Of a stretch of 37,691 nucleotides of DNA, positions 11,582 to 27,266 are shown in pieces; the stretch's first letter is position 1; every line of letters starts with the position of its first letter. The DNA is from Thalassocella blandensis. GTDB taxonomy: Bacteria; Pseudomonadota; Gammaproteobacteria; Pseudomonadales; Cellvibrionaceae. The notes beneath the pieces were generated by a model that was not told the origin of the DNA, made no database searches, and was given only the letters and a program-made list of their open reading frames with translations. The DNA lies in contig CAMCXE010000011.1 in the NCBI GenBank assembly GCA_945882995.1, positions 1-37,691 of the forward strand, read 5' to 3'. The translations under genes were made by a program, and so were the position numbers.

Positions 11582-12319
11582 ATGTTTGCCCAGGCAATTC
11601 CAACCACACAACTTGGCTTCCTAGTTGACGCTTCTGGCAGCATCGGCGCGGCTAATTTCACCACCATGCGTTCCGGTTATGCTGCCGCCTTGGCAGCTTT
11701 ACCTACCGACGGCTCCATCGAAGTGACTAGGTTTAGTTTCGCTTTCGGCGCTGTACCGGTGGTAGCGCCTACTGTTATCACACCAGCCAGCCTGCCCACT
11801 GTACTGACACAAATAAATGCAATGGTTTACACAACTGGACAAACCTACACCCATACAGGTTTAAAGGCTATCAGCGACGCCATGATTGGCTCTGCAAATT
11901 ACTCGCAGGGCTTAAACTCTCTGATCAATTTGGCCACGGACGGTGCGCCCAACCCTAGCGCCCAAGGCCCTATGGCCATTGCATTGGCCGCCTCCCTTAA
12001 AAGCAATGGTTTAATCGATTCTCTGACGGCAGAAGCTATAGGCCCGAACCCTGGCCTTAGCTTCTTGCAAAACGTAGTGTTCTCGCCTATCGCTGGGCCT
12101 TGCTTAAATTGCGGTGTAGTGCTGGCGGATGGCGTTACTCCGCCAAATCCACTCACCAGTGCTCCTTGGGTGCTAACCGTTAACTCTTTCGATGATTTTC
12201 CAAAAGCCATTAGCGCCAAAGTGCAAGTATTGGTGGACAGTACCTTACCAGAACCCGCCAGCCTAGTGTTGTTCTGCCTAGGTCTGGCCGGGTTGGCATT
12301 CAGCCGTCGCCGCGTTTAA
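11582..12319 (+). CDS. VWA-domain PEP-CTERM protein with disrupted signal peptide (possible frameshift)
   Basis: From the ATG at 11582 the 245-residue product begins MFAQAIPTTQLGFLVDASGS. The VWA MIDAS residues are intact (DASGS; T in THTGLKAI; D in LATDGAPN). The C-terminus is a PEP-CTERM tail: LPEPASLVLFCLGLAGLAFS followed by RRRV. This tail is processed by an exosortase at the inner membrane and needs an N-terminal signal peptide, which this start lacks. Directly upstream, in another frame (from 11521), lies KKLPSLLRTSLATLALIAPA, a good signal peptide; removing one base near 11581 would fuse it to MFAQA. That frame has no ATG, GTG or TTG after its stop at 11485. The gene is therefore mutated, or the sequence carries indel errors. 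A sigma-54 promoter precedes it and a terminator follows. Confidence 0.72.
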   Translation: MFAQAIPTTQLGFLVDASGSIGAANFTTMRSGYAAALAALPTDGSIEVTRFSFAFGAVPVVAPTVITPASLPTVLTQINAMVYTTGQTYTHTGLKAISDAMIGSANYSQGLNSLINLATDGAPNPSAQGPMAIALAASLKSNGLIDSLTAEAIGPNPGLSFLQNVVFSPIAGPCLNCGVVLADGVTPPNPLTSAPWVLTVNSFDDFPKAISAKVQVLVDSTLPEPASLVLFCLGLAGLAFSRRRV

Positions 12320-13177: not shown

Positions 13178-16100
13178 ATGTTAAGTAAGGTATTGTCCCT
13201 CAGAACCCTAACAAATTGGCGCGGCCTTGCAGCGGCGCTAATGAGTCTATTCATTTCTTTTAGTGCCCAGGCACAGCTGCTGAATGGCGACTTTAGCAAC
13301 GGCAGCACGGGCTGGGCCCTGGGTCAATTTGGTGGCGTGTCCGCCGGGGCCGTTACCACGGGCAGCTACAAAATTACCGTGTCTCAAGCCGGTACCGCTT
13401 GGTGGAATGTGCAATTTTTACAAGCCGGTCAAGCCCTGCAGACCGGCAAGCAATACCGTCTCAGCTTCGATGCGTTCAAAGGTCCAGAAAACGCGGGCGT
13501 TCAACAAGTGGAAATTAATGTGGGTCAGGCAATTGCGCCCTACGCCACTTACTCCAACTTCCCCAATAGATTGGTCATCCTGTCTACAACCAGCACCCGC
13601 TTTAGCTATACCTTCACCATGCTCCAACCCTCGGATGTTAACGCCCGCGTAGAATTTAATGCTGGCCTGAATACAGGCACTCTGTTTCTAGATAATGTGA
13701 GCCTTGAAGAAGTTGTTACCACAGTTAGCCAGTTGCAGCCGTCTGTGGCCGGCCTCAGCTTTGGCGACACGCTGGTGGGGGGCACCAAAATTCTACCCTT
13801 GAGCTTGCACAATCCAAGCTCGGTGCCCGTAAACATCAGTCTGGTCAGCTTTGACAATACAGATTTCACTGCCGATAAGACCGGCCCCATCACCGTCAGT
13901 GGCGGCGCTGATGCCATCATCAATGTGAAATTTGCACCCACTCGCTTGGGCGCAAGCCTTAGCAACCTGCGGATCGATACGGATGCAGCTGTCAATCCTG
14001 TGTTAACCCTTGGTTTAACCGGCAACGCTACCGCAGCAGGCCTGAACATTGTGCAAAACGCGCTTAACCTGACGGTTGGCGCAGGCACCACTTCCACTAC
14101 CATGTTGAACCTCAACAACTCTGCTGCCTTTGGCATTAACTGGTCCATCACGGCGGCCAACACTTGGCTATCGGCGCTACCTAACGCGGGCACCCTGAAC
14201 GGCAATCAGAGCCAAGCGGTTACCGTTAGCGTGAACGCTCTCGGTCTCGCCAGTGGCGTCTATCAAAGTTCCTTAGCTATTACCCATACCGCTGGCAACC
14301 TAACGTCACCCGTTACCATACCTGTGACGGTTACTGTGATTCAAAGCTATCAGCCGAAAAGCCCCTATTTACAAAACCCTGCATTGTTCATTGATTTCGT
14401 CCGTGATATTGCCACTTTCCGCAGCTTGTCCCGAGACAACGTCAACGGTGGCTTTTTTACCGATATCACGCGGAGTGGTTTAAGTACCGGCGTGAACGAA
14501 AAGTCTTTAAACGGGCAATCGCGTGTTGCCTGGTGTTTTGTCCGCGCATTCCAATTAACCGGAGACGAAAAATACCTAGAACTGGCACACCACGCACTAG
14601 GATTTTTATACGATCACGGCTGGCAAGACGGTTGGAATTTTGTCACCAGCAATGCCGGAACACCTATCCCTAATCACTGGGGACATGCGCGTTGGTGGAG
14701 TTTTCAGCAAAATTATGCACTCTTAGGTATTGGTGCCATGGTAGAAGCTACGGGCGGTGAAACGCCCTGGGGCGACGCCCGCGAGAGCGATATGACTTGG
14801 TTTTACCGCGGCGTGAATAGCAATTACCAGCGCCTTTGGGATAACAGAGTTAATCAATTAGGTTATTTTGACTACATTAATCGCAATTGGACCAATGGTA
14901 CAGGCAAAGGCTTTACTCCCACGGTGGATGCAATAACCACCCACGCCGCGCTTTTAGCCGCCATGACGGACGATCCACAACACGAGCAGCGCCTACGGGA
15001 TTTGGCCGACAATATCGTATTGCGGCTGGCAGGCAATATGAAAAATGCCGCCATAGGCTTTCCAATGTATTACGACGCCGCTTGGAATATCGATTTAACG
15101 CAAACCACGGCGGATATTGGTCACTTGTATAAAACATCTTGGGTATTGCAGCGCGCCTACCTTAACAACCCTACCCGTGATATTTATCGCACAACGGCCA
15201 ATGCCATTATTAACAACCTATGGAACGGTGGCACCTTCGACAAACAAAATGGTGGCCCCTACTCTGAGTTGAATTGGCAGACAGGGGCAATTACCAGCAC
15301 AGTTAAAAACCATTGGAAATTAGAGCAAGGTTTTATGTCTGGCATGACCAATTATTACACTGCGGATAATCAGCAAGACAAGGACATTTATTTACAAATT
15401 GCTGACGGTTCATTAAATTTTTACATGACCCGCATGCCTGACACCGAATTTGGCGATACATGGACAGAAGTTAACGTGGACGGCTCCGTGGTGACAGATG
15501 CCAGTAAAGGTGGACTATTTACTGCGGGTTACCATTCAGCGGAATGGGGCTATAACGGCTATTTGTACAGCCAGCTTTTTTACCTGAAGCAGCCTGTAAC
15601 GCTGTATTACAAATATCCAAGCTCTACGCTAACACGCAACATTAAAATGACACCGTTAGATATCCAAGACGACCAATTGGTGATTACTGGTGTAGAGCTA
15701 AATGGTTTGACCTACTCCAATTTCGCGAGCAACTCGCGCGTGCTAACGCTGCCGCCCGGCGTTTCTGGGAAATTTAAAGTTACCTATGCGCGCAGCAATA
15801 CCGACGGGGGATCGTCTAGCTCTTCCTCGCCTAGCAGCTCGTCAAGTTCTTCAAGCTCCTCGAGCTCGTCAAAGTCTTCAAGCTCGTCAAAGTCTTCAAG
15901 CTCTCCAAGCTCCTCGAGCTCGTCAAAGTCTTCAAGCTCTTCAAAGTCCTCGAGCTCCTCGAGCTCTTCAAAGCCTTCAAGTTCGTCAAGCTCGTCAAAG
16001 TCTTCAAGCTCTTCAATCTCTTCAGGTGGCGCCACTTGTGGCAACACTAAGTTTACTAAAACAGCAATTAAGGGTATCGAATTCACCGCAACCAATGGTG

Positions 16101-16309
16101 ACTGCGTTAAGTTCACTAAGCCCAACGGTTCACTTCAAGTGGGTTCCTGGAGCGGTAAGTCCTTTACCTTTAACATAGCCGGAGGCCCACAGGGCAGGGT
16201 CAATAGGGGTACTGGCTGGACAACGGTTGCCGGAGTTGCGAACACGGATATTTACGTAAGCATCATAGCCACAGCAGGTACATTTAACGTTAAATTCGAC
16301 GCTTGGTAA
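13178..16309 (+). CDS. Secreted multidomain protein with AGE-type (alpha/alpha)6 barrel
   Basis: A 1043-residue exported protein with a good ribosome binding site. Order: signal peptide (1 to about 32, ending SAQA); CBM4/9-like beta-sandwich (about 33-182, NGDFSNGSTGWAL... LFLDNVSLEEV); ASH/SPD-2-like Ig domain (about 190-288); BACON-like Ig domain (about 290-388); an AGE-type barrel (about 391-800); a short beta tail; a poly-Ser linker (879-949); and an unrecognised 94-residue C-terminal domain with two Cys (954, 976). The barrel carries the AGE landmarks KSLNGQSRVAWCF, DIGHLYKTSWVL (His649) and KGGLFTAGYH (His786), the two His placed like the catalytic pair of N-acylglucosamine and cellobiose 2-epimerases. 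Known AGE enzymes are mostly cytosolic, so a secreted form with a carbohydrate-binding module suggests action on extracellular glycans. The reaction (epimerase, isomerase or hydrolase) is not decided by sequence. Confidence 0.8.
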   Translation: MLSKVLSLRTLTNWRGLAAALMSLFISFSAQAQLLNGDFSNGSTGWALGQFGGVSAGAVTTGSYKITVSQAGTAWWNVQFLQAGQALQTGKQYRLSFDAFKGPENAGVQQVEINVGQAIAPYATYSNFPNRLVILSTTSTRFSYTFTMLQPSDVNARVEFNAGLNTGTLFLDNVSLEEVVTTVSQLQPSVAGLSFGDTLVGGTKILPLSLHNPSSVPVNISLVSFDNTDFTADKTGPITVSGGADAIINVKFAPTRLGASLSNLRIDTDAAVNPVLTLGLTGNATAAGLNIVQNALNLTVGAGTTSTTMLNLNNSAAFGINWSITAANTWLSALPNAGTLNGNQSQAVTVSVNALGLASGVYQSSLAITHTAGNLTSPVTIPVTVTVIQSYQPKSPYLQNPALFIDFVRDIATFRSLSRDNVNGGFFTDITRSGLSTGVNEKSLNGQSRVAWCFVRAFQLTGDEKYLELAHHALGFLYDHGWQDGWNFVTSNAGTPIPNHWGHARWWSFQQNYALLGIGAMVEATGGETPWGDARESDMTWFYRGVNSNYQRLWDNRVNQLGYFDYINRNWTNGTGKGFTPTVDAITTHAALLAAMTDDPQHEQRLRDLADNIVLRLAGNMKNAAIGFPMYYDAAWNIDLTQTTADIGHLYKTSWVLQRAYLNNPTRDIYRTTANAIINNLWNGGTFDKQNGGPYSELNWQTGAITSTVKNHWKLEQGFMSGMTNYYTADNQQDKDIYLQIADGSLNFYMTRMPDTEFGDTWTEVNVDGSVVTDASKGGLFTAGYHSAEWGYNGYLYSQLFYLKQPVTLYYKYPSSTLTRNIKMTPLDIQDDQLVITGVELNGLTYSNFASNSRVLTLPPGVSGKFKVTYARSNTDGGSSSSSSPSSSSSSSSSSSSSKSSSSSKSSSSPSSSSSSKSSSSSKSSSSSSSSKPSSSSSSSKSSSSSISSGGATCGNTKFTKTAIKGIEFTATNGDCVKFTKPNGSLQVGSWSGKSFTFNIAGGPQGRVNRGTGWTTVAGVANTDIYVSIIATAGTFNVKFDAW
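15812..16024 (+). repeat. Poly-serine linker coding repeat
   Basis: Low-complexity TCN/AGC codons encode 71 residues, nearly all Ser, with Lys or Pro interruptions at irregular 6-9 residue spacing. Such linkers separate binding and catalytic domains in Cellvibrio-type secreted enzymes. Near-repeats of TCGTCAAAGTCTTCAAGCTC suggest growth by slippage. Confidence 0.9.
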
Positions 16310-17913: not shown

Positions 17914-19251
17914 CTAGGGCTTAACATCGCCCAGCCACGCATTGTGAATTCGGCCTTCCGAACCTGGCAACACCACATTTTTATAGCCGGCCACTTCGGC
18001 AATCGTATTGAGCACATCGGTATGGCAAATAGAGGCCACGGTGGCGTCTTGGTCGCCCTGCACGCGCGCTTTACCATAGGGCGCTAGGTTCACAGTACGC
18101 CCGCCAACCAGCCCGGTATTTTTTCCTCCAGCGATGAACATGGGGATACGGAAGTGGTTATGGCGATTGCCATGGGCCAAGTCTGAAACTGTAACCAAGA
18201 TCGTATTATCCAACAAGCTGCTGCCGTCCCCGTCTGGGGTGTTGGCCATTTTGGTAATCAGCTTGGCAATCTCACCCATCCACCAAATTTTACTCGTGGT
18301 ATGTGTTGCGGCGTCTTCATGTGACAATTGGTGGTCATTGTTGGTTGTGCCCGGCACAACAATAGGCGAAACCGAAACGCCATAACTAAACGCCATGGTA
18401 CGAGTAAGGCCGCAACTCAATGCGGCAATGGCCATGTCCTGTTGAATGCTGGAAATATTCTCGAGCACAGCGGTGCGCCACAAGGCTGTTTCGGCGCGTT
18501 CGGTCCCCACGCTGGAAATGTTGGGCCCGGTGCAAACTCCACCCGTACCCGAGGCGGTGATCCGGGTCTCGAGTGCTGAGAGAGCCTCGGTATGTTGGTC
18601 CATACGCTCTTTTTCCAGGGTCCCGAGCTGGGTACGCAGACGCGCCATATCGGCCTTCGCGGCGCTGAGCATATCTAGGCGCAGGTCGCCTGGCGCTGTG
18701 CCAGTTCCGGTGTTGCCAAACAACAAGGGATAAAGTTTGCGCGGATCATCTTCGGCCTGCAGATCTTTGGTGCCATCGAAGCTAATACGCTTGCTTACTG
18801 AATCTCCCCACTGGGTAGCCACACCCATCTGGATAGATTTAAGGCTGATGCCGTTACTGGCGCGGTTAGTCCAATCTTCATTGCCCATTAAAACTTCAAT
18901 AGACGACAAGCCTTGTGAACCTTGGTCTTTAGTGGCGCCACTGTAGCCGGTCAAGCACTTGGCGCAGCCGCCTTCGTGGGTGAAGGCAGCTCCGGCGTAA
19001 CCAATACCGTCAACAAACAACAGGTTGTTAAACACTTTTTGCAAGGGTGCCGTCATCGCCGGCAACACCGTACCCCCAGGTTTAGGGAAAAAGATGTCTG
19101 GAACGCAGCCGTTGGGATGAAACAAAAATACGGTACGGATTGGCCGAGTGGTGCCGGCGGCTAGAGCATTGCGTCCGACTAGACAGGTTAAAGGTGTCGC
19201 CGCTGTTAGAGAACCCGCCGCAATTGCCTTGATTAAGGAACGTCGTTTCAT
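17914..19251 (-). CDS. DUF1552 family Tat-exported protein
   Basis: A 445-residue protein with a twin-arginine signal (MKRRSLIKAIAAGSLTAATP), indicating export of a folded, perhaps cofactor-bearing protein. DUF1552 features follow: TVFLFHPNGCVPDIFFP, LLFVDGIGYAGAAFTHEGG, FSYGVSVSPIVVPG, TTNNDHQLSHEDAATH and TILVTVSDLAHGNRHNHFRIPMF, together resembling the alkaline-phosphatase/sulfatase-like DUF1501 group. The HNH and DH motifs could bind metal. It lies 12 bp downstream of the DUF1592 gene; the two families occur together in planctomycetes, myxobacteria and some gammaproteobacteria. The biochemical role is unknown. Confidence 0.88.
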   Translation of the reverse strand: MKRRSLIKAIAAGSLTAATPLTCLVGRNALAAGTTRPIRTVFLFHPNGCVPDIFFPKPGGTVLPAMTAPLQKVFNNLLFVDGIGYAGAAFTHEGGCAKCLTGYSGATKDQGSQGLSSIEVLMGNEDWTNRASNGISLKSIQMGVATQWGDSVSKRISFDGTKDLQAEDDPRKLYPLLFGNTGTGTAPGDLRLDMLSAAKADMARLRTQLGTLEKERMDQHTEALSALETRITASGTGGVCTGPNISSVGTERAETALWRTAVLENISSIQQDMAIAALSCGLTRTMAFSYGVSVSPIVVPGTTNNDHQLSHEDAATHTTSKIWWMGEIAKLITKMANTPDGDGSSLLDNTILVTVSDLAHGNRHNHFRIPMFIAGGKNTGLVGGRTVNLAPYGKARVQGDQDATVASICHTDVLNTIAEVAGYKNVVLPGSEGRIHNAWLGDVKP

Positions 19252-19263
19252 GATGCTGTACTC

Positions 19264-22260
19264 CTAGCGGCGCTGTAAAAATGAGGGTGAAGACACGGAT
19301 TCGAACCAGAGGCCATTTAGGGCATTAACGCCCCCCTGCCAACGCGTGGAGGTGTTCTGAGTCACGCAGGTATCAGGCTGGTCCACACCACTCATGTAAC
19401 GCTGAAATTGGTCCGTCATACACGCCGCTACATAAGGCGCCCCTTCCGTAGCCAACACTTTCGAAAGACCAAGCACATCAGTGTATTCATGCTTGTCCGT
19501 ATCAGTCATTTTGTTTAACCCGGTAAGCGAGCCCGTGGCATCAATGGGTAAATTATTCCCTTCAGTGGAGCGATACTTGCCGATTGCATCGAAATTCTCG
19601 AAGGCAAAACCAATATCATCGATATATTGATGACACGACTGGCAGACACTATTGGTGGAGTGTGCGCTAAAACGTTCGCGAGTCGGCTTGGAGGGATCCA
19701 ATGGCTCCACTTCGCCCACGTTGGCCGGCGGAGGAGCAAATTCCTGACACAACAAATAGTGACGCACCAATAGCCCCCGCTTGATGGGGTGCGACTCTTT
19801 CGGCGAGGCATTGGTGGCCAGAATAGCGCCGAGCGTTAGCAGACCGCTACGCTGCGGGCTGTTCATAACTTTTTGGAAAGCTGGGGAATTGGCTGCAGGG
19901 ATACCGTAAAACGCCCCTAAGGTGTTGTTGGCGTAGGTGAAATTTGCGTTGAATAAATCGCCAACTTTGTAGGCATTGCCGGTAAACAGCTCCTGCAAAA
20001 ACATCTCCAATTCGGTTTTCAGACTGGTGCCAAGGGCTTTGTTTTGAAATTCGGGGTAGAGGGTTTCGTTGCGCTGTAACCCTGCCACGTCGCCTACATG
20101 CAGCCACTGGGTCCCGAAATATGCCAACTGTTTCTTGGCTCGAGCGTCGGTCAACAGGCGCGCAACCTGAGCGCGAATCTCTATGCTGGTGCCCAATGTA
20201 TTGGTGTCCGCTGCCGCCAATAATGGCGCATCGGGCATAGAACCCCAGAAGGTATAGGACAATAGGCTCGCCGTTTCATAGGGTGTCAAGGCATAAATGC
20301 CATTGGTGGGAGCGCCACCTAATTCTGTGCGATACAGGAAATTAGGTGACATCAACATGGCCTGAATCACCGCCTTTGCGCCTAGATCCTTCGTGGACGC
20401 TTTTTGGAATAGCGCCCGATAGGTAGTTGTCTCCGCAACGCTTAGCGGCCGACGAAATGCCTTTTTACCAAAGGTGGGCACGAAAGTATTCGCGCACGCT
20501 GCCAGGCTGTCGCCTGTGGCGCAGGTCATAACCTTAGTGAGGTCCAGCGCCGCGATTAGGATTTCCGCGGCGTTCCACTGGGCGTTTAGCAACGCCAAGT
20601 TAATGGTGGTGCCCCGAGGGTTATTGTCAAACCCATTAACGAGCCCATTGGCGCCAAACAATACTGTGAAGCTGGAACCATCGGTACGGCCAAACAGGTC
20701 ATTTACCGTATTCGCATATTCCACGTTAGTTAGCGGCCTTAAACGTCGTGGCAAGGCGTTTTCGGTGGCGCCGCAGCTCACCTCGGGCTTCCAGGTGAGG
20801 ATATAGGCGGCTATCAAGCTCGCGCACTTGTCGTCATCGGTACAGCTACCCGGTTTGTTATAGGGCATAGAGACGGCAATTTTTTGGGTCAGCGAGGTCT
20901 GCGTCCAGTTTTGAACAATGATGCCCCGCTGCGCCGCCGTGCCGTCGGCATTCACCCTGCCGTCAACCCCGTGGCAGCCTTGGCACCTGCTTAAAAAAAG
21001 ATCTTTCCCAGTCAGCATACCGCCGGCGGTACTGGACGAACTGCTGGAACTAGAAGGGCTGCTCGAGGACCCACTGCTAGGTTGAACCGTAAAACCATTG
21101 CGAATATAGGCTGCCACATCCAACGCACATTGCTCGGTGCATTTGGCACCGAAGGGCGGCATATACATCTCGATGTAGGGAGCCAGATCTAGCGGCGCCG
21201 AGTTGTCGATAACATAAGCCAGCTTGGTTGGGTCTATAGCGGTTTTGTTGTTGCGGCCACTGCCGTCGGTGTTGTGGCAGGTTGTGCAGCGCGCGGAGAA
21301 CAACCCTTGGCCATTCGCCGCATCGCCCAAGGGGTGGCCGGCGGAACTGGAGGTGCCCGAATTCGACGAAGAGCTGTTATTGCTACCCGCACCACTCACG
21401 ACAATTGCACAAACTGTTGCCTGATCCACTGAAGCTGTGAAATTGAGTGTTAACTTGCCATCCGCTACCGCTACGACGGGAAAAACATAGTCTTTTGCTA
21501 CGTTTTTACCTAGCGTTTTGAAAAGGTCTAGGTTGTTGATCAGGCTCGTTCCCTCGGCCGCCACACTCATGGCGCGTTTTCCAGCGGCGTCCCAATACTG
21601 TTCGCTGAGCTGCAACGTGACCTGGTACTCGCCATTGGGCACTGGGAATTCATACACAAATTGGCCCCAACGCTGATATTGGTAAAGTGCATCGTCCACT
21701 GTGTTAGCCACGGCGACGACAGAATTACTGGTTTTACCCCCAGTGAAATAGGCATCGGCCAGGTAGGCTTGACCATTGCTCGCTTTGAATGCCGCGCCGC
21801 CACTGTTAACAGCGTATAACACCGCAAGGCCTGATGAGCCGGAGGAACTTGACGAGCTGGAGGCGCTAGAAAGGCCAGAAGAACCAGAGGTAGTTGCCGA
21901 GCTGGACGAATCTGATGAATTCGTAGCGCCGCCAGAACTCGATGAATTCGCAGCGCCGGCAGAACCCAATTCGCTTGAAGAACTTGAAGAATTTGGAGAA
22001 CTTGAAGCGTCTAACGCCCCTGAACGACTTGAAGCGCTAGACGAACTTGATGAACTAGCGGTACCTGATGAACCAGCGGTACCTGATGAACTAGCGGCAC
22101 CTGATTCCAATTTGGCGCCGCCTCCACAGCTCGCAAGGCTTGTAACCAGCAGCCCCACCGCCCCCCAAACCTTAAGCTGGGTAAGTGCCGGCGATACATT
22201 GCGATGGCTTCGCGACACCATAAGTTGTTGGCTAGGTCTATCCGAATCTAGGTAGGTCAT
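19264..22260 (-). CDS. Tri-haem malectin/DUF1592 lipoprotein (DUF1587-1595-1592-1588-1585)
   Basis: A 998-residue lipoprotein when started at the ATG at 22260, which has GAGG 5 bases upstream; the frame is open 48 codons further but without a comparable site. The lipobox is LASC (Cys45). Then: a Ser-rich linker (about 46-150), a malectin-like carbohydrate-binding domain (about 152-300, AVNSGGAAFKASNGQAYLAD), a cytochrome c domain with CTTCH (Cys325), a poly-Ser spacer, a second with CQGCH (Cys426), DUF1587 (RRLRPLTNVEYANTVNDLFG), DUF1595, DUF1592 (LTPYETASLLSYTFWGSMPD), DUF1588 with a third motif CQSCH (Cys873), and DUF1585. It is probably an outer-membrane or surface electron-carrying protein acting with the downstream DUF1552 partner. 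The substrate is unknown. The malectin and Ser modules suggest glycan contact. Confidence 0.85.
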   Translation of the reverse strand: MTYLDSDRPSQQLMVSRSHRNVSPALTQLKVWGAVGLLVTSLASCGGGAKLESGAASSSGTAGSSGTASSSSSSSASSRSGALDASSSPNSSSSSSELGSAGAANSSSSGGATNSSDSSSSATTSGSSGLSSASSSSSSSGSSGLAVLYAVNSGGAAFKASNGQAYLADAYFTGGKTSNSVVAVANTVDDALYQYQRWGQFVYEFPVPNGEYQVTLQLSEQYWDAAGKRAMSVAAEGTSLINNLDLFKTLGKNVAKDYVFPVVAVADGKLTLNFTASVDQATVCAIVVSGAGSNNSSSSNSGTSSSAGHPLGDAANGQGLFSARCTTCHNTDGSGRNNKTAIDPTKLAYVIDNSAPLDLAPYIEMYMPPFGAKCTEQCALDVAAYIRNGFTVQPSSGSSSSPSSSSSSSSTAGGMLTGKDLFLSRCQGCHGVDGRVNADGTAAQRGIIVQNWTQTSLTQKIAVSMPYNKPGSCTDDDKCASLIAAYILTWKPEVSCGATENALPRRLRPLTNVEYANTVNDLFGRTDGSSFTVLFGANGLVNGFDNNPRGTTINLALLNAQWNAAEILIAALDLTKVMTCATGDSLAACANTFVPTFGKKAFRRPLSVAETTTYRALFQKASTKDLGAKAVIQAMLMSPNFLYRTELGGAPTNGIYALTPYETASLLSYTFWGSMPDAPLLAAADTNTLGTSIEIRAQVARLLTDARAKKQLAYFGTQWLHVGDVAGLQRNETLYPEFQNKALGTSLKTELEMFLQELFTGNAYKVGDLFNANFTYANNTLGAFYGIPAANSPAFQKVMNSPQRSGLLTLGAILATNASPKESHPIKRGLLVRHYLLCQEFAPPPANVGEVEPLDPSKPTRERFSAHSTNSVCQSCHQYIDDIGFAFENFDAIGKYRSTEGNNLPIDATGSLTGLNKMTDTDKHEYTDVLGLSKVLATEGAPYVAACMTDQFQRYMSGVDQPDTCVTQNTSTRWQGGVNALNGLWFESVSSPSFLQRR
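22049..22102. repeat. Three tandem 18-bp repeats in the lipoprotein linker
   Basis: Units 22049-22066, 22067-22084 and 22085-22102 (GATGAACTAGCGGTACCT type) differ at one or two bases. On the coding strand they encode repeated GTAGSS-like hexapeptides in the Ser-rich linker, consistent with recent slippage. Confidence 0.85.
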
Positions 22261-23574: not shown

Positions 23575-23941
23575 TCCCTGTCTGCCCCGCCACATAACCC
23601 GGGGCTGGATAGCGCGCCGCCTAAGGCCCACTCACCGCTTTTTGAGCGCCCTTCGGCGTTTGGTGCTAAAGGGACGGCGGCTGTCGCTTAATCACAGCCG
23701 CTATTGCTGAAAGCGCCGCGCAGCGCCCAAGCCAAAGGCAGTCTCGCCAGGGTATAACTCGAACCCCAAGTCTAGCCATCTCAGCGGATTCGCGGCAAAA
23801 TCCGCATATGTCCAACTGCCTACGCGGGGCCATCTAAAATATCCCGTTTAGCGTATAGCTGCTGCCGCCAACTGCCTCCCACGCAAGGGCCCATAACACC
23901 TCACCTTGGCGCCAACGCGCGTCAATCAATTAGGAAGCGCT
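23575..23941. other. Intergenic region before ovoA
   Basis: A 367-bp stretch without a supported gene. Two hairpins are visible: GCCCCG/CGGGGC (23584-23589 and 23600-23605) just after the glycine-zipper gene, and GCGGCTGT/ACAGCCGC (23677-23684 and 23694-23701). Neither has a clear T-run. AGGA at 23932-23935 serves the ovoA start. Confidence 0.5.
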
Positions 23942-26050
23942 ATGCCCCACCGTCTGTTCCCCCGAACACCGAATTTACAAAACCCAGATACCCAGGCGCT
24001 GCGCGCTGAAATCTGTGCTTATTTTCTCGCCACGTTTGACACCTACGAAGACTTATTCAACACCCTGCGCAACGACGAAGCCTACTACCAAAAGCCCATT
24101 AATTTGCGTCACCCACTCATTTTCTATTTGGGCCATACGGCTACTTTTTTCGTGAACAAATTAATTTTGGCGCGGCTTATCGACACACGCATTAATCCCC
24201 GGTTTGAATCCTTATTCGCCGTGGGCGTAGATGAAATGGGTTGGGACGACCTAGGCGTCCAGCGAAATAATTGGCCAACCGTTAGCGAGGTTAAGGCATA
24301 CCGCCGTCAAGTTCGTGAACTTGTCAAAAGCATCATTGAAATCACCGACCTGCAATCTCCCATCCACTGGCAGCATCCTTGGTGGGCAATACTCATGGGT
24401 ATTGAGCACGAGCGCATCCACCTCGAAACCTCGTCCGTGTTGATTCGCCAACAACACATCGCCCTCGTGCAACAGAGTGAACGTTGGCAAGCCTGTAAGC
24501 TGTCCGGTACAGCGCCTGAAAATCGACTCATCAGCGTGCCGGCGGGTGAGGTAAATTTACACAAAACCAACGCCGACGCCTATTACGGATGGGACAACGA
24601 ATTCGGTGAACACCACGCCACTGTGGAGTGTTTTCAGGCCAGCCAATATTTAGTGAGCAACCAAGAGTTTCTGGCATTTGTAGAGGCTGGGGGATATCAA
24701 ACCCCCGACTATTGGCTCCCTGAAGGCGCCAGCTGGTTGGACTATTCCCAGGCCAAAATGCCGACTTTTTGGCTGCAGTCAGACCGCAGCTGGCAACTGC
24801 GTTTGATGACCGACATTATCCCCATGCCGTGGGATTGGCCGGTAGAAGTGAATTATCACGAAGCCAAGGCTTTTTGTAATTGGAAACAAACTACCACTGA
24901 CCTTCCCATACGTTTACCCTCCGAGGACGAATGGCATCGCCTTTATGCCGTAGCCGGCTGCGCTCCAGTAGGCGCAGAGTCCGCAAAGGCGAATGTGCAT
25001 TTGGATCATTTCGCCTCAGCTTGCCCCGTGAACCATTTCGCCCAAGGTGAATTTTTTGATGTTACCGGCAATGTTTGGCAATGGACGGAAACACCCATTT
25101 ATCCATTTGCCAATTTCGAAGTACATCCACTGTACGACGACTTCACCACCCCAACGTTTGACGCGCGCCACAATCTCATTAAAGGCGGGTCATTTATTTC
25201 CTGTGGCAACGAAACGCTTAATACAGCGCGCTACGCTTTTCGCCGGCATTTTTTCCAGCATGCCGGTTTCCGTTATATCGCTTCCGACAAGGTCCAGACT
25301 GTGCCCAGCTCTCATTACGAAACTGATAAATTATTGTCCGAATATGCCGAATTCCACTACGGCGATAAGTATTTCAATGTCCCTAATTTTTCTGTGCAGC
25401 TGGTTCAGGCCGCGCTCCCGATTATCGCCAATTTACCGCGAGCTAAAGCTCTGGACTTAGGTTGCGCCTCTGGGCGTGCCAGTTTTGAATTGGCTCGCCA
25501 CTTCGCGCAGGTGACGGGCATCGATTTTTCCGCCCGATTTATAGGGCAAGGTATACAGATGATCGAAGAGGGAAATTTACGCTATACCCTGCAAGACGAA
25601 GGTGAATTGGTCAGCTACAAAACCCGCTCACTCAGTGATTTAGGATTGGACGACATAGCCGAAAAAGTGGCGTTTTATCAAGGCGATGCCTGCAACCTCG
25701 GGGCACAATTTACTGGGTATGATTTTATTTTAGCCGCCAACTTAATTGATCGGCTCTATAAACCGACGCAATTTTTAGAAGCCATTCACGAACGCTTAAA
25801 TATCGGTGGAATACTGATGCTGGCCTCTCCCTATACCTGGCTAGAAGAACACACACCACGGGAGGAATGGATAGGTGGGTTTAAGCACGATGGCGAAAAC
25901 GTTACCACCCTTGACGGCCTGAAAGGCTGTCTACTAGCGCATTTCCGGCTAATCCAAGCACCCATGGAAATTCCTTTTGTGATACGCGAAACCAAACATA
26001 AATTCCAACACAGCCTTTCGGAGGTCACGTTTTGGGTGCGGTTGAATTAA
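23942..26050 (+). CDS. ovoA: 5-histidylcysteine sulfoxide synthase / mercaptohistidine methyltransferase (OvoA)
   Basis: A 702-residue iron enzyme when started at the ATG at 23942 (MPHRLFPRTPNLQNP, AGGA upstream); a TTG 36 bp earlier is less likely. Order: DinB-like domain (about 1-180) with the iron-binding His65 (GHTATFF) and HERIHLE (His156, His160); an FGE-sulfatase domain (about 195-440) ending GGSFISCGNE... ARYAFRRHFFQHAGFRY; and a SAM methyltransferase domain (about 450-702) with the LDLGCASGRASFELARHF motif. OvoA uses O2 to couple cysteine to C5 of histidine as a sulfoxide, and its C-terminal domain N-methylates 5-thiohistidine to ovothiol A. The fused methyltransferase and the RHFFQHAGFRY segment separate it from EgtB. 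The C-S lyase gene begins one base after its stop. Confidence 0.93.
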   Translation: MPHRLFPRTPNLQNPDTQALRAEICAYFLATFDTYEDLFNTLRNDEAYYQKPINLRHPLIFYLGHTATFFVNKLILARLIDTRINPRFESLFAVGVDEMGWDDLGVQRNNWPTVSEVKAYRRQVRELVKSIIEITDLQSPIHWQHPWWAILMGIEHERIHLETSSVLIRQQHIALVQQSERWQACKLSGTAPENRLISVPAGEVNLHKTNADAYYGWDNEFGEHHATVECFQASQYLVSNQEFLAFVEAGGYQTPDYWLPEGASWLDYSQAKMPTFWLQSDRSWQLRLMTDIIPMPWDWPVEVNYHEAKAFCNWKQTTTDLPIRLPSEDEWHRLYAVAGCAPVGAESAKANVHLDHFASACPVNHFAQGEFFDVTGNVWQWTETPIYPFANFEVHPLYDDFTTPTFDARHNLIKGGSFISCGNETLNTARYAFRRHFFQHAGFRYIASDKVQTVPSSHYETDKLLSEYAEFHYGDKYFNVPNFSVQLVQAALPIIANLPRAKALDLGCASGRASFELARHFAQVTGIDFSARFIGQGIQMIEEGNLRYTLQDEGELVSYKTRSLSDLGLDDIAEKVAFYQGDACNLGAQFTGYDFILAANLIDRLYKPTQFLEAIHERLNIGGILMLASPYTWLEEHTPREEWIGGFKHDGENVTTLDGLKGCLLAHFRLIQAPMEIPFVIRETKHKFQHSLSEVTFWVRLN

Positions 26051-26051
26051 C

Positions 26052-27266
26052 ATGACAGGCACAACCCGTTTTAATTTTGATGCAGTCATATCGCGTCAAG
26101 GCACCCATTCCGAAAAGTGGGATGGCCGCCAACAACAATTTGGAAACGCAAATATTTGCCCGCTTTGGGTGGCGGACATGGATTTTGCATCGCCGCCCTG
26201 TGTAGTGGAGGCACTGCAGGCCCGTGCCTTGCATCCTATTTACGGATATACGCAGCACCCCAGCAGCTTATTTAGTGCCGTTATCGGCTGGCTTGAAAGG
26301 CGCCACCACTGGCAAATTACGCAGGACTGGATTTTGATGGTGCCCGGTGTTGTGACAGCGCTACATGCAGCGGCCCTCGCCCTGGTTCCGGAAAACGCAG
26401 GCATTATTGTGCAGCCACCCGTCTATTTCCCGTTTTTTTCGTCGGTAACTAAAACCCAGCGCAAACTGCTACTCAACCCACTGCAATTACAAAACGGTCA
26501 TTACACTATCGATTTTGCCCAACTCAAACAGCTAGCGCCGGAGGCGCACATGATCGTTTTATGCAGCCCCCACAATCCTGTGGGTCGAGTCTGGCAAAAA
26601 TTCGAGCTGCTGCAATTATTGCGCATCGCCAAACACCACAATTTGCTGATTTTTTCAGACGACATTCACGCCGATTTGATTTTGCCCGGCCACCAACACC
26701 AGATGCTCGCTGCACTAGTCACAGATCCAGATTGTGCCGAATTCGCGGAATTTATTAACACCAATGTCATCACCGCGGTAGCACCCAGTAAAACTTTCAA
26801 TATCCCAGGTTTATCCTTGTCTAGCTTGATAGTGCCCAATCCAGAACTCCGCAAAAAGCTGCAAAACACCTTAGGTTTGTTACACATAGGCATTTTTAAT
26901 CCCTTTAGTATTGCCGCCTGCGAGGCCGCCTATACCCATGGCGATGACTGGCTAGACGCGCTGATGCTCTATCTCAACAACACCAAACATCGCGTTGCGG
27001 ATTACTTGATTAAAAATCTCCCGCAAATCAAGCTAATCGAGCCTCAGGGTACTTATCTATTATGGCTGGACTGCCGCGCGCTAAACCTAGACGACAAACA
27101 ACTGCAACGCTTTTTCATTGAAGACTGTGGGCTAGGTTTAAGCCCTGGCGTTATTTTTGGTGAAGCTGGGCAGGGTTTTATGCGGCTGAATATGGGAGCG
27201 CCGCAGAGTCTTATTATGGAAGCCTTGGATAAGGTAGCCGCGGCGCTGCAAAAATTAGGCGGTTGA
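26052..27266 (+). CDS. ovoB: PLP-dependent C-S lyase of the MalY/PatB family, probable OvoB
   Basis: A 404-residue fold-type I PLP enzyme. MalY/PatB hallmarks are the N-terminal NFDAVISRQGTHSEKWD, PLWVADMDFASPPCVVEAL, the CSPHNPVGRVW segment, the DDIHADL motif (PLP-ring Asp) and the PLP lysine in APSKTFN (Lys247). Such enzymes cleave C-S bonds of cysteine conjugates to pyruvate, ammonia and a thiol. OvoB of Erwinia is a PLP sulfoxide lyase that converts the OvoA product to 5-thiohistidine. The start lies one base after the ovoA stop, which makes co-translation and this role likely. The alternative is an ordinary cystathionine beta-lyase; the assignment to ovothiol synthesis is from context. 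Confidence 0.85.
   Translation: MTGTTRFNFDAVISRQGTHSEKWDGRQQQFGNANICPLWVADMDFASPPCVVEALQARALHPIYGYTQHPSSLFSAVIGWLERRHHWQITQDWILMVPGVVTALHAAALALVPENAGIIVQPPVYFPFFSSVTKTQRKLLLNPLQLQNGHYTIDFAQLKQLAPEAHMIVLCSPHNPVGRVWQKFELLQLLRIAKHHNLLIFSDDIHADLILPGHQHQMLAALVTDPDCAEFAEFINTNVITAVAPSKTFNIPGLSLSSLIVPNPELRKKLQNTLGLLHIGIFNPFSIAACEAAYTHGDDWLDALMLYLNNTKHRVADYLIKNLPQIKLIEPQGTYLLWLDCRALNLDDKQLQRFFIEDCGLGLSPGVIFGEAGQGFMRLNMGAPQSLIMEALDKVAAALQKLGG

Follow-up and report, generated by a model that had tools for sequence, protein, structure and literature searches.

A gene for a predicted tri-haem lipoprotein and its DUF1552 neighbour

The window, the whole 37,691-nucleotide stretch of Thalassocella blandensis DNA that was analysed, carries on its reverse strand a gene for a DUF1592-type lipoprotein and, 12 bp downstream, a gene for a DUF1552 protein, both at the places given by a first-pass annotation made from the letters alone. 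The lipoprotein gene has the following features:

19264..22260 (-): DUF1592-type tri-haem lipoprotein gene, 998 aa from ATG 22260; reading frame open from GTG 22404
22126..22137 (-): lipobox L-A-S-C, read from the sequence, with its Cys at 22128
21826..22113 (-): Ser-rich linker 1
21406..21822 (-): malectin domain, PF11721 (Pfam 3e-22; solved malectins matched too, 7e-11)
21085..21339 (-): cytochrome c domain 1, X183-like; top PDB match 7B21 (CjX183 of Cbp2D), 5e-8
21274-21288 (-): CTTCH of cytochrome c domain 1
20770..21027 (-): cytochrome c domain 2, X183-like; PDB 7B21, 2e-7
20971-20985 (-): CQGCH of cytochrome c domain 2
19267..20772 (-): X132-like core of DUF1587, DUF1595, DUF1592 and DUF1588
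19630..19644 (-): third haem motif, CQSCH, within DUF1588

The best start is the ATG at 22260, preceded by GAGGG; the longest reading frame begins at GTG 22404 and likewise ends at 19264 (-). The lipobox, Ser-rich linkers, malectin domain and two cytochrome c domains that had been proposed were all recovered with Pfam or in the sequence, and the Gly at position +2 after the lipobox Cys is compatible with sorting to the outer membrane. The core matched DUF1587 (2.8e-7), DUF1595 (6e-18), DUF1592 (8e-35) and DUF1588 (7e-31). Exactly three CxxCH motifs are present (21288-21274, 20985-20971 and 19644-19630). The third does lie inside DUF1588, as the first-pass annotation had it, but its reading as an added, special feature was rejected, since this CxxCH is 98-100% conserved in the DUF1588 family and typical of it. 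The pair stands alone: the upstream gene is divergent, the large gene at 13178-16309 lies on the other strand, and no glycan genes adjoin the pair in one operon. A scan for promoters and terminators gave nothing above chance.

Kinship with X183/X132 redox proteins

Searched singly against the PDB, both cytochrome domains gave 7B21, 8Q1W and 8Q1V as best matches, of which the first is CjX183 of Cbp2D and the other two are X183 domains of Teredinibacter (TtX183). Haem-bound structures have been solved for CjX183 and TtX183, both X183 relatives. Isolated CjX183 binds haem with a potential of +193 mV, and it reduces and activates AA10 LPMOs (PMC8981238). The X132 module starts with DUF1587 and contains one CxxCH (PMC8981238, PMC10916295); in the Cbp2D sequence, we found the Pfam order and the CxxCH of X132 to be the same as in the window's lipoprotein. 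This protein thus has the X183 domains and the C-terminal, CxxCH-bearing X132 of the X183/X132 redox proteins, and its malectin domain (3e-22), predicted to bind sugar, stands as the carbohydrate-binding module. Taken together, the X183 and X132 matches identify it as a TERTU_2913-like redox lipoprotein in which malectin replaces the Cip1-like X122.

TERTU_2913 of Teredinibacter turnerae is a putative lipoprotein with the order X122-X183-X183-X132 (PMC10916295). It shares with the window's protein the X183-type domains, the X132 of DUF1587 to DUF1588 with its CxxCH, and a DUF1552 gene directly downstream, and differs in having Cip1-like X122 in the place of malectin and four CxxCH motifs rather than three. 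Cbp2D of Cellvibrio japonicus, built as CBM2-YceI/X158-FN3-X183-X132 (PMC8981238, PMC12542752), likewise combines X183 with the X132 core and is followed 47 bp downstream by a DUF1552 gene in the matching genome; unlike the window's protein, it has a single X183 rather than two, carries CBM2 and YceI where the other has malectin, shows no lipobox that we could see, and has a cbp2E gene upstream of its own.

The DUF families of the lipoprotein are also known as the planctomycete-specific domains PSCyt3-PSD3/4/5 (Studholme et al., cited in PMC2754498), and adjacency of PSCyt-type genes to a gene family of unassigned role was noted in Verrucomicrobia (PMC5615132). These share with the locus here both the Pfam families and the conserved neighbour gene; in their main texts, those authors name neither a fold, nor a complex, nor a link to Cbp2D. 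The first-pass annotation had seen in the pair an undescribed system rebuilt in this genome. That claim has to be given up, since X183-X183-X132 was already published for TERTU_2913 (PMC10916295) and in part for Cbp2D (PMC8981238); an undescribed system unique to this genome was rejected as well, close architecture and pairing being widespread. What is new here is the DUF1552 fold, the adjacency to cbp2D and to the TERTU_2913-like gene, the predicted complex, the co-divergence of its two halves and the X132 fusions; the system itself is not undescribed.

Pairing of X132 with DUF1552 across genomes

Among 38 relatives, 60 of the 67 DUF1588 matches have DUF1552 just downstream on the same strand, and at least six of the remaining seven have DUF1501 in its stead. 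Nearly all of 80 loci from Gammaproteobacteria, Myxococcota, Acidobacteriota, Planctomycetota, Verrucomicrobiota and Oligoflexaceae, spanning six phyla, are paired. The gene order is reversed in a few of them and, apart from contig ends, only one locus (L127) is unpaired, so that the conservation across distant phyla ascribed to the pair is borne out. In one own-genome locus (L181:1849-5685, on C3), a divergent cytochrome protein with a weak DUF1588 match is paired with DUF1501 and not with DUF1552.

One genome encodes an X183 with 100% identity to PDB 7B21. Its cbp2D has the published length of 1122 aa and lies between a cbp2E-like gene, upstream, and DUF1552, which starts 47 bp downstream; in Teredinibacter-type genomes, DUF1552 begins about 8 bp after a TERTU_2913-like gene with a Cip1-like domain. 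On these identities, we take the former to be C. japonicus Ueda107 and the latter to be T. turnerae T7901. None of the open-licence papers searched on Cbp2D and TERTU_2913 mentions the DUF1552 neighbour, and its position directly after both genes is a new observation within that literature. At L175:1860-3916, genes for DUF3570 and for ApbE, a flavin transferase, come after a Teredinibacter-type pair, an order that is the same in two related genomes.

The N-terminal part of the lipoprotein varies among relatives. Malectin recurs in a second copy in the same genome (C13), in one Cellvibrionaceae relative (L072) and in 4 of 20 X132 paralogues of genome G010, which removes the malectin-bearing architecture as a unique trait. 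Elsewhere X132 is fused to CBM2 and YceI, to CBM2, GH5, an esterase and CBM9, or to CBM26 and a glucose/sorbosone dehydrogenase. These varied modules suggest that the N-terminal part is an exchangeable glycan or enzyme module, joined to an X183-X132 end that stays constant. The largest such fusion (L070:5096-11608) has 2171 aa comprising CBM2, a GH5 cellulase, an esterase, CBM9, cytochrome c and the X132 core, and a DUF1552 gene adjoins it. G010 itself, a 4.1 Mb Cellvibrionaceae genome (L233-L252), holds 23 or more DUF1592/DUF1552 pairs, whose modules are as varied as malectin, CBM26, CBM35, CBM6 and CBM60.

DUF1552 has a predicted alkaline-phosphatase-type fold and a His-rich conserved site

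The partner gene and its conserved residues are placed as follows:

17914..19251 (-): DUF1552 (HXXSHH, PF07586) gene, 445 aa; Tat signal MKRRSLIKA; alkaline-phosphatase-superfamily fold predicted
18976..18978 (-): H92, 98% conserved; spaced to L-T-G as the sulfatase nucleophile is in CxPSRxxxLTG, a mapping by inference
18319..18333 (-): H307-x3-H311, putative metal ligands, 89% and 99% conserved
18160..18183 (-): D357 (Asp/Glu in 94%) and H364 (100%), putative metal ligands, aligned with the sulfatase SDNG region

The protein matched its Pfam family at 1.9e-37 (129.9 bits, curated cut-off 30) and no other. Its Tat-type signal, proposed earlier, was confirmed, the twin Arg being invariant in 81 homologues. 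An AlphaFold2 model computed with these homologues (pLDDT 86.9, pTM 0.83) gave 51 PDB matches at E<=1e-3; among the matches listed, all belong to the alkaline-phosphatase superfamily and most are sulfatases, at TM-scores of only about 0.4 for the latter. A PDB sequence search found no match. By profile comparison, DUF1552 is homologous to DUF1501 (E 2.5e-12 over 371 columns), the family beside at least six of the seven DUF1588 proteins that are without DUF1552; DUF1501 differs in being a separate Pfam family whose partner is of a divergent cytochrome type. The C-terminal part of DUF1552 also matched sulfatases in profile comparison (E 1e-7).

DUF1552 is therefore predicted to fold like alkaline phosphatases and sulfatases, and it conserves four His and an acidic residue almost without exception. 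It resembles that superfamily in the fold and in the C-terminal SD(N)G region, and departs from it in lacking the nucleophile motif and in having a His-rich conserved site: the sulfatase C/S-x-P-S-R motif (PF00884) is absent, no Ser or Thr nucleophile is conserved, and H92 stands there instead. As the N-terminal profile alignment of the H92 region to the sulfatase nucleophile was not significant, the correspondence of H92 is kept as a spacing argument only. Asp/Glu119 (97%) and D348 (96%) are conserved as well. The usual nucleophile seems to be replaced, and a His-rich metal site without it would be the simplest reading of this conservation. The earlier guess at a metal site fits these His residues, with some redrawing of the motifs on which it was based: in 'HNH', the first His (H364) is invariant and the other residues are not, and 'DH' corresponds to H307 of the H307-x3-H311 pair. 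A true sulfatase was rejected for want of the nucleophile motif.

A predicted complex of X132 and DUF1552

As no shift of frame separates the two genes, reading through the stop codon between them allows the pair to be modelled as one chain. We modelled such a fusion of 952 residues, in which X132 is joined through five residues to DUF1552 and the Tat peptide serves as a flexible linker. This single prediction, from an alignment of 87 rows of which only seven were truly paired, reached pLDDT 89.7 and pTM 0.85, where our own estimate for independently placed halves is a pTM of roughly 0.55-0.6. X132 and DUF1552 are thus predicted to bind directly as a complex, with the kind of interface that the first-pass annotation had made a test of its proposal. 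All of the top 50 PDB matches of the fusion are sulfatase-type, with none to the X132 fold among them. The distance matrices of X132 and DUF1552 from the 20 paralogous pairs of G010 are correlated (Mantel r = 0.76, p = 0.0001), which indicates that X132/DUF1552 pairs stay together over deep divergence.

Genome context and the probable role of the pair

The T. blandensis genome (3.96 Mb, 97% complete), of which the window is contig C11, belongs by genome kinship to the same family as the C. japonicus-like G045 and the Teredinibacter-like G151, probably Cellvibrionaceae, and holds four complete pairs and a fifth DUF1552 gene; we found no AA10 match and no PF00884 sulfatase in it. Of 14 genomes with DUF1552, 13 carry GH5. 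AA10 occurs in 12 of 14 genomes with DUF1552 versus 4 of 24 without; among GH5-bearing genomes this link is gone (p 0.43, small numbers). Strong in raw counts, it is inseparable from a GH5 lifestyle, and lifestyle and kinship confound all such counts. Two points weigh against the reading favoured below: the window's pair shares no operon with adjoining glycan genes, and in Verrucomicrobia, PSCyt density is inversely correlated with glycoside hydrolases and the proteins are predicted to be periplasmic or cytoplasmic (PMC5615132).

C. japonicus mutants in cbp2D and cbp2E have a cellulose defect beyond that of LPMO loss, for which a novel direct action was suggested (PMC12542752, PMC13227985). 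The tie to GH5, the absence of AA10 and PF00884 from the genome at hand and these phenotypes lead us to favour, by a narrow balance of probability, a single extracytoplasmic redox complex aimed at polysaccharide. Its architecture, family membership, pairing, fold and predicted interface come from computation; metal binding, the substrate and the way in which electrons flow are inferred. The lipoprotein would anchor the complex to the outer membrane, and malectin on its Ser-rich linkers would bind glycan. The haems of both X183 domains and of X132 would form the electron relay, and Tat-exported DUF1552 would dock on X132, carrying a His-rich metal site in its alkaline-phosphatase-type fold. The working step would be a one-electron exchange between that site and the haems; the outer partner would be either a saccharide or a glycan-located redox enzyme. 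As the usual nucleophile seems to be replaced, a sulfatase is less probable for DUF1552 than a metalloenzyme of oxidoreductase-like kind. The predicted domains and motifs lend support to the extracytoplasmic, haem-bearing, glycan-linked pair that had been envisaged.

The pair might instead donate electrons to LPMOs, malectin bringing the haem chain to glycan and X183 reducing the LPMO copper, with DUF1552 only feeding or stabilising the chain. The activation of AA10 LPMOs by isolated CjX183 (PMC8981238) and the raw AA10 counts speak for such a donor; loss of the AA10 link among GH5-bearing genomes does not, nor does growth of C. japonicus on cellulose, which is hurt more by loss of cbp2D or cbp2E than of lpmo10B (PMC12542752). 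A dedicated donor role is less likely here because no AA10 was found in a genome with so many DUF1552 genes, though one that is only 97% complete, and we consider it unlikely overall. Less probable still is that DUF1552 acts as an alkaline-phosphatase-superfamily hydrolase or transferase, removing sulfate or phosphate from glycans, the cytochrome protein being mainly a targeting scaffold: its fold matches are mostly sulfatases, and in Verrucomicrobia the vicinity of PSCyt genes often contains sulfatase genes (PMC5615132), but neither CxPSR nor a Ser/Thr nucleophile is conserved, a His holds that spacing in 98% of homologues, and the conserved haem sites and dehydrogenase fusions would be left unexplained. 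A haem wire serving as a respiratory or extracellular electron outlet, with malectin for attachment and not for substrate choice, suits a multihaem outer-membrane lipoprotein and the DUF3570 and ApbE genes after the Teredinibacter pair, but is very unlikely: the haems number only three, neither a porin nor a large multihaem partner adjoins the window's pair, carbohydrate modules recur, and the GH5 association fits a sugar role better.

Within the favoured reading of a glycan-anchored redox complex, X132-DUF1552 could even be a new class of polysaccharide-acting metallo-haem oxidoreductase, with a His-ligated metal in an alkaline-phosphatase fold wired to cytochrome c, which we regard as unlikely. 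If so, DUF1552 would be an overlooked third subunit, needed for the direct cutting of cellulose that has been suggested for Cbp2D/E. Apart from that possibility, the finding of an alkaline-phosphatase-fold partner, with which X132 is predicted to form a complex, supplies a missing component for the role of Cbp2D and X132 in bacterial cellulose breakdown (PMC12542752, PMC13227985). As the pair is also found in Myxococcota, Acidobacteriota, Planctomycetota and Verrucomicrobiota, one assay could assign function to several large DUF families.

Other genes in the window were observed in passing. The gene at 13178-16309 (+) encodes a secreted-type protein of 1043 aa with CBM4_9, ASH and BACON domains, an N-acylglucosamine-2-epimerase-like barrel and a long Ser-rich stretch, possibly a glycan enzyme. 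A short VWA-domain protein with a PEP-CTERM sorting motif is encoded at 11582-12319 (+). At 23906-26050 (+) lies a gene for an OvoA-like protein with DinB_2, FGE-sulfatase and methyltransferase domains; a gene of the aminotransferase family comes close behind it at 26052-27266.
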